Assembly (NCBI GenBank): GCA_020353355.1 | Contig: CP070694.1 | Location: forward strand, 4,206,744 to 4,248,843 | Direction of reading: 5' to 3' | Source of the DNA: Desulfobacterales bacterium | GTDB taxonomy: Bacteria; Desulfobacterota; Desulfobacteria; Desulfobacterales; JAHEIW01 | Length of the DNA: 42,100 nucleotides | In this document: positions 23,130-29,195 of the stretch, piece after piece | Layout: every line of letters starts with the position of its first letter | How positions within the stretch are numbered: the first letter of the stretch is position 1 | Notes under the pieces: model-generated | Database searches by the model: none | Seen by the model: only the letters and a program-made list of their open reading frames with translations | Told to the model about the DNA's origin: nothing | Program-made: the position numbers and the translations under genes

Positions 23130-23480
23130 ATGAACGAGTTTTCTCCTGAAGAGACCCAAAGACGGAAAAAGGCCGTTTTTGACAGCATGTCGCCCAGGCG
23201 CCAAAAGCATATTTTAACTAAAATCGGCTACGACAAATGGGATCCCTTTCAAGAACCCAAGGACCCGATTGATATTCGTAAGGATAAAAGCAGGCGCACC
23301 ACCCAGATGCTGGTTCGCGAATTTTTACAATCCCAAGAATCGAAAGGTTACAGCAATGCTTATGCGAGAGGTGTCCTGGAAATGGCGCTGGGCATCGTCA
23401 ACCAAGAAGAGCGCTTTAAAGGCATGTATGAGTTTTCATGCTGGTATCGTGAGCTTTTGAGAAAAGAAGGGCACGAGTGA
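23130..23480 (+). CDS. Hypothetical protein, 116 aa
   Basis: I do not recognise this protein. It is a soluble, charged sequence with no signal peptide or membrane segment. The N-terminal part is rich in Lys/Arg and Pro (SPRRQKHILTKIGYDKWDPFQEPKDPIDIRKDKSRR); the C-terminal part is probably helical (RRTTQMLVREFLQSQE, AYARGVLEMALGIVNQEERFKGMYEFSCWYREL). Codon use looks like its neighbours, which supports a real gene. The nearest AAGGAG is about 16 nt from the ATG, longer than ideal, but no other start exists in the frame before a stop. Confidence 0.65.
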   Translation: MNEFSPEETQRRKKAVFDSMSPRRQKHILTKIGYDKWDPFQEPKDPIDIRKDKSRRTTQMLVREFLQSQESKGYSNAYARGVLEMALGIVNQEERFKGMYEFSCWYRELLRKEGHE

Positions 23481-23949: not shown

Positions 23950-25098
23950 ATGTCCTGGGATTATGTATTGGAGCTCATTAAGAATATCCTCGTAACACAG
24001 ACAGGCATGCCGAACTTGCTTTTTAAGCAGGTCATCATGATGGCGGTTGCGTTTTTTTTCCTTTATTTGGCTGTTGCCAAGCGATATGAACCGCTGCTTC
24101 TGGTGCCTATTGGATTTGGTATTTTCCTTGTTAATTTCCCCCTTGCGCCGTTGATGGGGTATACCGAGCACGGCTATCCCGAACTCCTCAGGGCCTTCTA
24201 TAAATACGGCTTAGAGTGGGAAATAATTCCTCCGATGATCTTTCTCGGGCTGGGGGCGATGACCGACTTTGGTCCTTTGATCGCCAACCCAAAAACACTT
24301 ATTGTCGGTGCCGGAGCCCAGCTGGGCGTTTTTATCACCTATATCGGTACCCTATTTTTCGGCTTTACCCTCAAGGAGGCTGCTTCGGTGGCCATTATCG
24401 GCGGTGCGGACGGGCCCACCACAATTTATCTGACGGCCAAACTTGCACCCCAACTCCTCGGTGCCAACGCTCTGGCTGCTTACTCATACATGGCCATGGT
24501 GCCTCTCATCCAGCCGCCCATCATGCGCCTGATGACCTCTTCTGCCCAGCGTCGGATCAAAATGCGACAGCTCAGGCCGGTGTCGGCTCGGGAAAAATTG
24601 CTTTTTCCCTTGATCGCCGCCGTTCTGATTATTCTTCTGATCCCGGCCGTCGCGCCCCTGATGGGAATGTTTATGTTCGGCAATTTCATGCGTGAATGCG
24701 GCGTCGTCAAGCGTTTATCTGATACAGCCCAACAATCTCTCATGAATATTATCACCATCCTCTTAGGCCTTTCAGTGGGAGCTACGATGGAAGCCGAAGT
24801 TTTTCTTAGCTGGAAGCCTCTTCTTATTTTCGGATTTGGTCTTTTGGATTTTATCGTATGCACTTTTGGCGGGGTGTTAACGGTCCAAATTATGAATCTA
24901 TTTATAAAAGAAAAAATAAATCCCCTGATCGGATCCGCCGGCGTATCTGCGGTGCCGATGGCCGCCCGTGTTTCCAATACGGAAGGCCTTAAAGCCGATC
25001 CGACCAACTTTTTGTTGATGCACGCCATGGGGCCTAATCTGGCCGGAGTGATCGGCTCGGCTGCAGCGGCGGGCATGTTCATTGCGATGTTTCAATAG
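23950..25098 (+). CDS. Sodium ion-translocating decarboxylase, beta subunit
   Basis: A 382-residue polytopic membrane protein of the OadB/GcdB/MmdB family. It releases CO2 from carboxybiotin and couples this to Na+ export. Visible are about nine or more hydrophobic segments, the conserved [19 protein letters not shown] containing the key Asp of the Na+ site, [16 protein letters not shown], and [22 protein letters not shown] at the C-terminus. AGAAGGAGAGCTAAG precedes the ATG. Gamma-like and biotin-carrier genes follow within 1 kb, but no carboxyltransferase alpha subunit is here. The substrate (oxaloacetate, methylmalonyl-CoA or glutaconyl-CoA) therefore cannot be told. Confidence 0.93.
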
Positions 25099-25107
25099 GA
25101 GGAAGCC

Positions 25108-25476
25108 ATGAAGGTGAAATTTTTATCAACTATCATTGGGCTATGGCTTCTTTTTGAACTTTTCATGATGGTGCCGACACCATACATAGCTTGGGCAACA
25201 TTTGGTGAGGATCAGGAAAAACCGCGACCCGAATTCACTCGCGAGGGCGATATAATCACGGCGAAACTCCTTCCCCGGGCAAAAAGCACCAGCGTTTTTA
25301 TCAATTTCAAGGTTGCCGGCGCAGAGCTGATCAATGTTCAGGGAATGGACTTTGAGAAGGCCGACCGGCCCGAGGTCGACCTCAAAGATTTCAAATCAGC
25401 TCTTTTCGTGATTGAAATTGGGGCTCTTTCCCCAGGAGGCGAGGCCATGGTCTCGCTGACATCCGATTTTTTTTAA
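25108..25476 (+). CDS. N-terminal part of a probable decarboxylase-associated membrane protein, ended by a frameshift
   Basis: A 122-residue frame starting 9 bp after the beta subunit with GGAGGAAGCC before its ATG. Residues 1-30 form a signal or anchor (STIIGLWLLFELFMMVPTPYIAWA). The rest is a beta-rich, probably periplasmic domain with no family I recognise. It stops at TAA 25474-25476, right after a T8 run (25467-25474). Removing one T would read on as DFFNRSTRFWIFNEKLETPWMDS into the next frame without a stop. I therefore read it as the front half of one interrupted gene. Confidence 0.7.
   Translation: MKVKFLSTIIGLWLLFELFMMVPTPYIAWATFGEDQEKPRPEFTREGDIITAKLLPRAKSTSVFINFKVAGAELINVQGMDFEKADRPEVDLKDFKSALFVIEIGALSPGGEAMVSLTSDFF
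25467..25474 (+). other. T8 homopolymer at the frameshift site
   Basis: Eight T residues at 25467-25474. With seven, the frame of the 25108 gene joins the frame of the 25511 gene. This may be a sequencing error, a slippage-prone switch or a true mutation. Confidence 0.75.
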
Positions 25477-25510
25477 TCGGTCGACCCGATTCTGGATTTT
25501 CAATGAAAAG

Positions 25511-26038
25511 TTGGAAACACCATGGATGGATTCCATCGCCCAAAATTTGGATCGACCCGACCGGGTTCAGGAACTTGTAATTAAAGTAAAAGATGGCGGT
25601 TCGTTCGATTCGGATATGAATGAGAATGGCCGCATGATCATCATTGGTGGCCCAAAGGATTCATTTTGGGGTTATGCATTGGGAACCCTTTTTATCCGGT
25701 ATTTTGGCATATTTATTGTCCTCTCCATTCTCATGCTCGGTATGATTTTTTCCGGCAAAATTTTCCAGCACCTTGAGCACAAGAAGGCCAAATCCGCGAG
25801 TAAACCGGAATCACAAACCGTCCGGGCGGGAAAGGCTGAAACCCCGAACATTGCCGATAATGGTATCAATCCCGAGATGGCAACGGCTGTCGCTGTGGCC
25901 CTTCATTTGCATTTCTCCGGCTCACGCGCATCGGATTCGATGCACTTATCTTCTTTGCGGTCGACAGCTTGGAGTCAACAGGGACGTGCGCAGATCATGG
26001 GCGAACGGTCGCTGATGTATAATCGTCATAAACGTTAA
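25511..26038 (+). CDS. OadG-like gamma subunit (C-terminal part of the split gene)
   Basis: A frame of 175 residues whose nominal TTG start has no ribosome site. The frame is open back to 25475, which supports it being the back half of the gene starting at 25108. It contains DRVQELVIKVKDGGSFDSD, then GGPKDSFWGYALGTLFIRYFGIFIVLSILMLGMIFSGKIFQHLE with one membrane helix (about 62-82). A charged linker and INPEMATAVAVALHLHF follow, resembling the conserved tail of decarboxylase gamma subunits. OadG-type subunits anchor and assemble the complex. Expression depends on how the T8 break is resolved. Confidence 0.7.
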   Translation: METPWMDSIAQNLDRPDRVQELVIKVKDGGSFDSDMNENGRMIIIGGPKDSFWGYALGTLFIRYFGIFIVLSILMLGMIFSGKIFQHLEHKKAKSASKPESQTVRAGKAETPNIADNGINPEMATAVAVALHLHFSGSRASDSMHLSSLRSTAWSQQGRAQIMGERSLMYNRHKR

Positions 26039-26058
26039 GTATCATTGAGGTGCTTGAA

Positions 26059-26523
26059 ATGAAATATAAGATCGCCGTTGGCAAAAAGAAATTCGAGGTA
26101 GAAATAGGTCTCATCAAAGACGGATTGGCCCAGGTAATAGTGAATGATAAAACCTATGAGGTCAACATCGAAAACTTTGCCGAGGTGACAGGCAGGAGAG
26201 CAATCAGAGAAAGCAGCCCGCTGCCGGTCCTTTCCGGGACAAAAGCCCCGGCGCCGCCGGATACCTCCCCAGCGCAAAAGACCACATCGGTTTCTCTCGC
26301 TTCGACCGGCAGCGGTGTTGTCGCGGCACCTATCTCAGGCCGCATTTTAGAGGTCAAGGTCAAAGTGGTCGATACCATAAGCGTCGGACAGGGCCTGTTG
26401 GTCTTGGAAGCCATGAAAATGGAAAATAGCATTAACAGTGAGGTATCCGGCATATTACGTGAGATCAGAGTTCGAGTGGGAGACCAGGTATCCACCGGCG
26501 ATGTCCTGATGGTTATCGAATGA
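26059..26523 (+). CDS. Biotin carboxyl carrier subunit of the decarboxylase
   Basis: A 154-residue biotin carrier protein. The C-terminal biotinyl domain (about 80-154) holds the biotinylation motif VLEAMKMENS with Lys120 as the modified residue, 34 residues before the end. Residues 55-80 are an Ala/Pro-rich flexible linker (KAPAPPDTSPAQK). It carries the carboxyl group from the missing carboxyltransferase to the beta subunit. The frame opens at a GTG (26050), but the ATG at 26059 is preferred because GAGGTG (26048-26053) then sits at a usual distance. Confidence 0.92.
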   Translation: MKYKIAVGKKKFEVEIGLIKDGLAQVIVNDKTYEVNIENFAEVTGRRAIRESSPLPVLSGTKAPAPPDTSPAQKTTSVSLASTGSGVVAAPISGRILEVKVKVVDTISVGQGLLVLEAMKMENSINSEVSGILREIRVRVGDQVSTGDVLMVIE

Positions 26524-26799: not shown

Positions 26800-28002
26800 A
26801 TGGATAAAAAAACATTATGGGCATCAACTATTATTTTATTATATTTCATACCCTTATCAATAGCTCTTGGGACTGCTTTTGCAGCCGATAAGCCTTACAT
26901 ATTTGGTTTGCTGTTGGTCGGACCCCACAATGACCACGGCAGGAGCCAGATGCACTTTGAAGGTGGTAAATATGTTGAAGAGAAATTACCCGGTACAAAA
27001 ATGATTTATATTGACAAGGTAAATCCCGCCGACCGCCCGGGTATGACTATTCCCTTATTGGTTGATGATATGGTGCAAAAAGGCGCTAAGGTGATTATTG
27101 CCAGTACCAATAATATGAAAGACGGTGTGCGGGAAGCAGCGTTACTGCATCCGGAAATCAAGTTTATTCATATTTCCGGAGATGATGTGCTCACAGGAAA
27201 GGCCCCTGACAATCTCAGCAATTTAATGGGCCGCATGGAGTACGGTAAAATGATGGCCGGTTTTGCTGCCGCAATGACCACCAAAACCGGAAAAGTCGGA
27301 TATCTTGGCCCTCTAATTAACGGAGAGACTCGCCGTCTGGCAGCATCAAGCTATCTTGGTGCAAAATACGCGTGGGAAAAGGTATTGAAAAAAGATATCA
27401 AAGAATTGAAATTTCAGGTCATGTGGATTGGCTGGTGGATCAATCTTCCCAACCAGACTGAGGATCCTACCAAAGTTGCTCAGAATTTTTTCAATACCGG
27501 TTTTGATGTGGTTATATCGGGCATTGATACAAATGAGATATTGTTTGCTGCAAACCAGAAGAAAAAAGAAGGCCAAAATGTTTGGTGCCTCCCTTTTTAC
27601 TATAGAGGCGATTGTGAGAGTGCTTCGGATGTCTGTCTCGGAGCACCCTACTACAATTGGGGACCCGGATATGTAAAATTGTTAAAATCAGCCATGTCAG
27701 GTAATTGGAAATCTGAATGGTTGCTTTTGGGTCCTGACTGGAAAGATATCAGCAATCCGGATACCAGCACTGTCGGGTTTGTGGCTGGTCCCGCACTGTC
27801 ACCATTTTCAAAAAACGCACTGGACACATTTATTAAAGATCTTGGTTCCGGCAAATTAGATTTATTCAAAGGCCCTCTGAATTACCAGGATGGCTCCCCC
27901 TTCATTAAAGCAGGTGAATCTGCCACTGTTGAGCAAATGTGGTACATGGAACAGCTTTTGGAGGGGATGTCGGGACAAAGCAAAGGAAATAAAACTGATT
28001 GA
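26800..28002 (+). CDS. BMP/PnrA-family ABC transporter substrate-binding protein 1
   Basis: A 400-residue periplasmic binding protein of the Bmp/Med/PnrA family, whose members bind nucleosides. A signal peptide covers about 1-30 (cleavage after TAFA); no lipobox Cys is present. Family-like segments include FGLLLVGPHNDHGRSQMHFEGGKYVEEKLPG, the MVQKGAKVIIASTNNM stretch, NLMGRMEYGKMMAGFAAAMTTKTGKVGYLGPLINGE and a C-terminal LDLFKGPLNYQDGSPFIKAGE. GAGGAGAAGATCTT precedes the ATG. It is more AT-rich by eye than the next binding protein, from which it is separated by 101 bp. The ligand is unproven. Confidence 0.86.
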   Translation: MDKKTLWASTIILLYFIPLSIALGTAFAADKPYIFGLLLVGPHNDHGRSQMHFEGGKYVEEKLPGTKMIYIDKVNPADRPGMTIPLLVDDMVQKGAKVIIASTNNMKDGVREAALLHPEIKFIHISGDDVLTGKAPDNLSNLMGRMEYGKMMAGFAAAMTTKTGKVGYLGPLINGETRRLAASSYLGAKYAWEKVLKKDIKELKFQVMWIGWWINLPNQTEDPTKVAQNFFNTGFDVVISGIDTNEILFAANQKKKEGQNVWCLPFYYRGDCESASDVCLGAPYYNWGPGYVKLLKSAMSGNWKSEWLLLGPDWKDISNPDTSTVGFVAGPALSPFSKNALDTFIKDLGSGKLDLFKGPLNYQDGSPFIKAGESATVEQMWYMEQLLEGMSGQSKGNKTD

Positions 28003-28103
28003 TTTACTAATAAATGCCTCAAACCATCTGGCACACACTTTTTCACGGTCATAATCATTATCTTGTTTAAATTTTAAACCATTCAGAAAAGGGGGGATTT
28101 CCT

Positions 28104-29195
28104 ATGAGAAAAAAATTTATTTTTTTAATGTTGATGGTTTTGGGCATCGGCTTACTGATTTCAGCGCCGGCCCTTGCCAAAACAAAGGTGGCCTTTGCCC
28201 TGCTTTGGACCATTGACGACATGGGTTGGACCACGGCCCATTACCGCGGAATCGAGTATCTGAAAGAACAGCTCGGGGATCAAATCGAGGTCTCGTACAC
28301 TGAAAAGGTTCTGGCAGCCAATGCCGAGCAGGTGCTTCGGGGCTATGCCAAGGCGGGATACAACATCATCTTCGCCACTACCTTTGAGCACATGGACCCC
28401 ACCATGATTGTGTCCCGGGACTTTCCTAACGTTGTCTTCGAGCACTGCTCCGGTTACAAGAAAAACGATAAAAACATGGGTAACTACTTTATGCGTATGT
28501 ATCAGGCCGAGTATCTGGCCGGTTACATGGCTGGACTAATGGGCTACAAGAATGTGGGGACTGTGGCTACCCAGCCCATTCCCGAGCCCATCCGCGGTAT
28601 CAATGCCTTCACCATCGGCCTGAAAAAAGGCCTCTCAGAGGCAGGCATTGACCACGACCCCCAGAAAGTCAACACCATAGTCTGGCTTAAAAGCTGGCGG
28701 GATGCCACCAACGAGACGCTTCTGGCGGAAACCCTTGCTGGCCGGGGTCACGACCTGATTCGTCAGATGGCTGATACACCGGAATCCGCTGCGGCTGCCT
28801 GCCGTAAGGGGGTTCCGTCTATCGGCTATGGTATTGATGTCGGCACCCAGGCACAGTGTGCCCTGATCTCCACGGAATGGAACTGGGGAGTTTATTATGT
28901 GGATGCTGTCAAGCGTTCCATGGCCGGGGCCTGGCAGCCCGCAGAAGTCTGGTGGGGATTTGAAAAGCAGGGCGTCAAGCTCGGCCCCTTTCACGCATCG
29001 GTGACCGATGAGGTGAGACAGAAAGTTTTGGCCGAAAAGGCCAAGCTTGAGATGGGTGTTGATAACATCTTCGCCGGCCCCATTAATAATCAGTTGGGTA
29101 AAGAAGTGATTGTCGCCGGTCAAAAGGCCAGCGATCAAGATCTTCTTACTATGAGGTGGTTGGTGGAAGGTGTTGCCGGAAAGATTCCCGACTAA
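28104..29195 (+). CDS. BMP/PnrA-family ABC transporter substrate-binding protein 2
   Basis: A 363-residue second binding protein of the same family, clearly divergent from the first. The signal peptide is residues 1-25 (cleavage after APALA). Family features include TIDDMGWTTAHYRGIEYLKEQLG, the MYQAEYLAGYMAGLMGYKNVGTVATQPIPEPIRGINAFTIGLKKG region and GVPSIGYGIDV. GGGGGGATTTCCT precedes the ATG. From here to 33541 the DNA looks richer in G and C at third codon positions than the neighbouring genes. It heads the set of phosphoribosyltransferase, ATPase and two permeases and is the more likely cognate binding protein. Confidence 0.9.
   Translation: MRKKFIFLMLMVLGIGLLISAPALAKTKVAFALLWTIDDMGWTTAHYRGIEYLKEQLGDQIEVSYTEKVLAANAEQVLRGYAKAGYNIIFATTFEHMDPTMIVSRDFPNVVFEHCSGYKKNDKNMGNYFMRMYQAEYLAGYMAGLMGYKNVGTVATQPIPEPIRGINAFTIGLKKGLSEAGIDHDPQKVNTIVWLKSWRDATNETLLAETLAGRGHDLIRQMADTPESAAAACRKGVPSIGYGIDVGTQAQCALISTEWNWGVYYVDAVKRSMAGAWQPAEVWWGFEKQGVKLGPFHASVTDEVRQKVLAEKAKLEMGVDNIFAGPINNQLGKEVIVAGQKASDQDLLTMRWLVEGVAGKIPD

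Follow-up and report, generated by a model that had tools for sequence, protein, structure and literature searches.

In oxaloacetate decarboxylase, the membrane part of the gamma subunit binds the beta subunit and its cytoplasmic tail binds the alpha subunit (PMC7274780). The locus described here resembles OadG, MmdD and GcdD (PF04277) in specifying an OAD_gamma-type helix and tail from a gene placed between those for the beta subunit and the biotin carrier, but differs in encoding ~310 aa that include an N-terminal signal segment and a choice-of-anchor U domain, in scoring below the TIGR01195 cut-off, and in having a broken frame. It is also comparable to the methylmalonyl-CoA decarboxylase operon (mmdA, beta, scaffold, carrier), whose order is the same in relatives (alpha, beta, scaffold, biotin carrier), except that in the window (the whole 42,100-nt stretch of DNA analysed) and in a same-genus relative alpha does not adjoin beta.

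Genes interrupted at a homopolymer can be rescued by transcription, as described for Citrobacter tssM with an A11 run (PMC4256274). E. coli RNA polymerase slips at T runs of at least 7, with ~10% rescue by one-base deletion at T8 (PMC6260861), and selection against slippage usually shows from nine-base runs onwards (PMC1088944). The scaffold gene of the window is like Citrobacter rodentium tssM, Shigella mxiE and the mboIIM2 +T mutant in having an A/T run at the premature stop and a frame that would be restored by the loss of one transcript base; the slippage-rescued genes have runs of 9-11 in place of T8 (the laboratory mutant of mboIIM2 is also T8), and the site in the window differs further in being unconserved.

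The scaffold frame is interrupted at a T8 run

The features of the locus, all on the forward strand, are as follows.
23950..25098, + strand: decarboxylase beta subunit (membrane Na+ pump), intact; PF03977, 499.8 bits
25108..25476, + strand: N-terminal piece, with a signal/membrane segment and the start of an extracytoplasmic-type domain, ending at the premature TAA; ORF of 122 aa
25463..25480 (repeats to 25491), + strand: inverted repeat CCGATT/AATCGG around the T run, a possible 6-bp hairpin with a U6 loop; sequence
25467..25474, + strand: T8 homopolymer in the codons of the conserved SDFF motif, site of the frame break; sequence
25474..25476, + strand: premature TAA stop codon; sequence
25475..26038, + strand: C-terminal piece in the +1 frame, with the remainder of the choice-of-anchor U domain, an OAD_gamma-type membrane helix and a cytoplasmic tail; ORF
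26050..26523, + strand: biotin carrier protein subunit, intact; PF00364, 63.1 bits

The frame from the ATG at 25108 runs for 122 codons and ends ...TSDFF* at the TAA. The initial annotation had placed this stop directly after eight Ts and a second open frame at exactly the break point, and both placements are exact: the T8 run occupies 25467-25474, the TAA occupies 25474-25476, and the +1 frame from 25475 reads NRSTRFWIFNEKLETPW... for 187 aa, its stop ending at 26038. The run is the longest homopolymer of the scaffold gene. Runs of this length are not rare in the window, where T8 or A8 occurs several times and T9 twice, and the beta gene carries its own in-frame T8 at 24052-24059.

In nearly all relatives the SDFF site lies in one frame

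When the two halves were used as queries in translated searches, both were matched in a single frame in 12 of 12 first-round relatives, and each is homologous, far beyond chance, to the corresponding half (N- or C-terminal) of a single protein. The same-genus relative (CP070746.1, the MAG Desulfobacterales bacterium bin36; loci L002/L016 of G001) shares 67% identity with the N-terminal half and 76% with the C-terminal half. At the aligned site, within well conserved flanking DNA, it reads GA-T7-ATTCG where the window reads GA-T8-AATCGG, and its T7 lies in one frame, which supports a single ancestral frame and bears out the earlier description of a split at this run.

We searched 389 genomes across the order and then read the SDFF site locus by locus. 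Forty-eight other copies of the same order pass through the site in one frame; the out-of-frame slip site is thus not conserved among them. The T run itself varies (TTT-TTC, TTC-TTC and TAT-TTC codons) and is in frame at any run length; one copy (L167 of G114) also has T8 at this site, but in frame. Homologues that are naturally two genes, which the initial annotation had regarded as decisive against a split, were looked for in this comparison and none was found, all 48 copies being single-frame. Widening the search to the class added no genomes beyond those of the order, and viral contigs contained no relatives.

That the two ORFs are separate genes by nature is therefore hardly credible: a TTG start with an open frame is present at 25511, but nearly all other copies are single and the break cuts through one domain, and this reading was rejected on the uninterrupted frame of the relatives. 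The alignments make it virtually certain that the scaffold gene is naturally single, with the frame of the window's copy broken by one base. For annotation, the two ORFs are best treated as a single scaffold gene whose frameshift is recent or apparent, and not as two proteins, and the split should not be taken as evidence of pump loss.

Identity of the scaffold subunit and its operon

In the intact relative, an N-terminal signal/membrane segment precedes a choice-of-anchor U domain (NF041766, 41.6 bits, cut-off 32, residues 97-184), which is followed in turn by an OAD_gamma segment (PF04277, 29.1 bits, cut-off 27, residues 204-271); the break falls at residue 124-125, within the choice-of-anchor U domain. 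The C-terminal frame of the window scores 28.1 bits against PF04277, above the cut-off of 27, while the narrower TIGR01195 model (oadG_fam) gives 22.8 and 21.1 bits against a cut-off of 36.05. The gamma-like identity proposed at the outset thus holds for the C-terminal half, but the protein is a long form of ~310 aa and not a short OadG; by these domain matches it is a divergent long form, distinct from the typical OadG of TIGR01195. Domain content and gene order identify the gene as a gamma/delta-type scaffold subunit of a biotin-dependent sodium-pumping decarboxylase that resembles methylmalonyl-CoA decarboxylase. In the order Desulfobacterales (window and loci L143-L200), this subunit has the long form in which OAD_gamma is preceded by a choice-of-anchor U domain. 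Solved structures searched by sequence gave no credible match, and an AlphaFold model of the same-genus protein, built with three alignment rows and of low confidence (mean pLDDT 46), suggests, as no more than a rough indication, a strand-rich domain with a long helix after it.

By analogy with oxaloacetate decarboxylase, the scaffold would bind alpha and beta and stabilise the complex, and a truncated piece without the membrane helix and tail would be expected to lose binding to both.

The order beta, scaffold, biotin carrier is found in the window and in nearly all relatives, and the beta subunit is 94% identical to that of the same-genus relative. Only one OAD_beta match and one OAD_gamma match over the cut-off occur in the window's genome. 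The best match of the relatives' alpha subunit is TIGR01117 (mmdA) at 797 bits, under the cut-off of 998.8 bits. The alpha (carboxyltransferase) gene, present in the operon in many other relatives, is gone from it in the window's genus (23950-26523); the best alpha-like gene of the window's genome lies at 2.125 Mb (L173) and is 57% identical to the alpha of another relative, G318. An ORF of 116 aa with no Pfam match lies 5′ of beta at 23130-23480, and 26800-29195 contains a tandem pair of PnrA-like (BMP family) substrate-binding proteins, with a phosphoribosyltransferase-like ORF and an ABC ATPase ORF behind them.

Purifying selection on the downstream half

Compared with the same-genus relative, the C-terminal half has codon-position differences of 27/23/61 over 187 codons, with dN 0.14, dS 0.69, dN/dS ~0.2 and 76% amino acid identity, and no further stop or indel; the N-terminal half has dN 0.20 and dS 0.50. 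By relative-rate counts, the window's copy has not evolved significantly faster than that of the same-genus genome. These substitution patterns indicate that the C-terminal half has been under purifying selection, and that the frame was held through most of the divergence from the same-genus relative. Because the downstream half has been kept under selection and is otherwise undamaged, the break is recent, artefactual (only apparent) or bypassed.

Consensus error or a real T8

We infer both the level of the break (error or DNA) and its effect on the protein, and the weights given here to all readings are judgements and were not computed. All four options named in the initial annotation (sequencing error, phase variation, transcript slippage and true loss of function) are among the readings weighed. 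One extra T (T8 in place of the T7 of the same-genus relative) shifts the frame of a single scaffold gene, and the frame ends within the choice-of-anchor U domain, short of the membrane helix that would bind beta and the tail that would bind alpha. In the reading that we prefer, the extra T would have arisen at the consensus level, as a homopolymer error left over in an assembly of one contig. This is the single most likely level of origin, at a probability somewhat short of even; it is favoured since a sole OAD_gamma match, a sole OAD_beta match, intact neighbours and a coding-like downstream half fit a working gene. Taken together, the readings that assume a real T8, formed by replication slippage, carry about the same weight. 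In kind, the break at the T run is ordinary, whether a very recent mutation or a leftover assembly error.

The assembly was assessed by comparing 1.2 Mb of the window's genome with 1.2 Mb of the same-genus genome, covering 49,030 orthologous codons (~147 kb), in which no true frame break was seen besides the scaffold gene. Seventy-six coding A/T runs of at least 7, 24 of them of at least 8, are frame-intact in the compared genes, and the assembly shows no overall surplus of frame breaks at homopolymers. A second apparent break, near 138773 in the window's own genome, was rejected as a conserved non-coding (promoter-like) region 5′ of a gene. The 95% upper bound on the residual error rate is ~one in every 50 kb of coding sequence, a rate that would allow for one such error here, and the scaffold T run was picked for being broken. 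The assembly is not generally error-prone, and a residual error is possible, though at any one run it would not be expected. Its estimated completeness is 84.7% despite the single contig, for which frame breaks in the sampled part are no explanation. The intact runs elsewhere, together with an independent break in G318, count against the consensus error.

Other broken copies among relatives

On contig 52 of G318 (L181:241-1193), a scaffold copy reads GATTTTTCAG, one T short of the relatives' GATTTTTTC, at the same FF codons; its run is T5 for T6, the frame carries on downstream of the break, and a second, intact scaffold copy is present in the same genome (L182). A copy on contig 303 of G386 (L197:1250-1460) is broken elsewhere, at a PRGKST motif, apparently because a base was lost from a G run. 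Two of the three breaks found among ~50 copies thus fall in the same T run, and those of the window and G318 are independent and of opposite sign, which fits slippage at a long homopolymer, although three cases are no proof of a switch. The G318 break favours a real mutational hot spot, with G318 being a draft assembly too.

A T run that toggles between in-frame and out-of-frame lengths within the population, that is, phase variation, could produce two such breaks of opposite sign at one site, which in the window is also the longest homopolymer of the gene. However, 5-8 bases is a short run for a contingency locus, the T run is not conserved among relatives, and a core energy-metabolism scaffold would be an unusual phase-variable target, so that we consider this improbable.

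Possible fates of a real T8

If the T8 is real, RNA polymerase slippage may yield some U7 transcripts and hence full-length subunit, enough for the complex. The run reaches the length at which bacterial RNA polymerase slips (T7 onward in E. coli), slippage of the E. coli enzyme on T8 goes in the direction needed (PMC6260861), and the downstream half is still selected. Coding T8 runs are also not avoided in the genome, with 11 seen against 6.0 expected from synonymous shuffling, and for coding T runs of T9 or longer 0 were seen against 1.6 expected. Against this, the slippage figures are for E. coli RNA polymerase and not for the enzyme of this lineage, and the out-of-frame site is not conserved in relatives, so that a programmed slippage device is not supported. 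By analogy with the E. coli data, a leaky gene is plausible, if on the unlikely side. Were the T8 real and the gene working, it would represent a small natural transcriptional rescue in an energy-coupling enzyme of Desulfobacterales.

Alternatively, a real T8 could be a fresh null, leaving this strain, or part of the population, with a complex that has no scaffold. The product would stop short of the membrane helix and tail of OAD_gamma, and alpha no longer adjoins beta in the window's genus; yet the downstream half is without decay, beta retains its close identity to the relative, the biotin carrier is intact and there is no spare copy. We regard a fresh null as distinctly less probable than a leaky gene.

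At prfB-type +1 sites, a stop codon stands in the next position. A ribosomal +1 frameshift at UUU UAA could likewise fuse both frames, as the Phe tRNA on UUU could re-pair one base on with the stop codon next. Inspection of the sequence revealed no Shine-Dalgarno-like element at the short prfB spacing, the local fold around the T run is unexceptional (z -1.47), and the site is not conserved in relatives. With the stimulatory element not seen, prfB-like recoding was rejected, and ribosomal frameshifting in general is very improbable here.

A homopolymer hot spot with leaky rescue at the scaffold T run is possible. A further reading, to which we give little credence, is that the T run at the SDFF codons would be a recurrent slip site of this scaffold family. 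Changes in its length would switch or tune the amount of full-length scaffold, and hence tune the sodium pump, by DNA slippage from cell to cell and by RNA polymerase slippage inside each cell.
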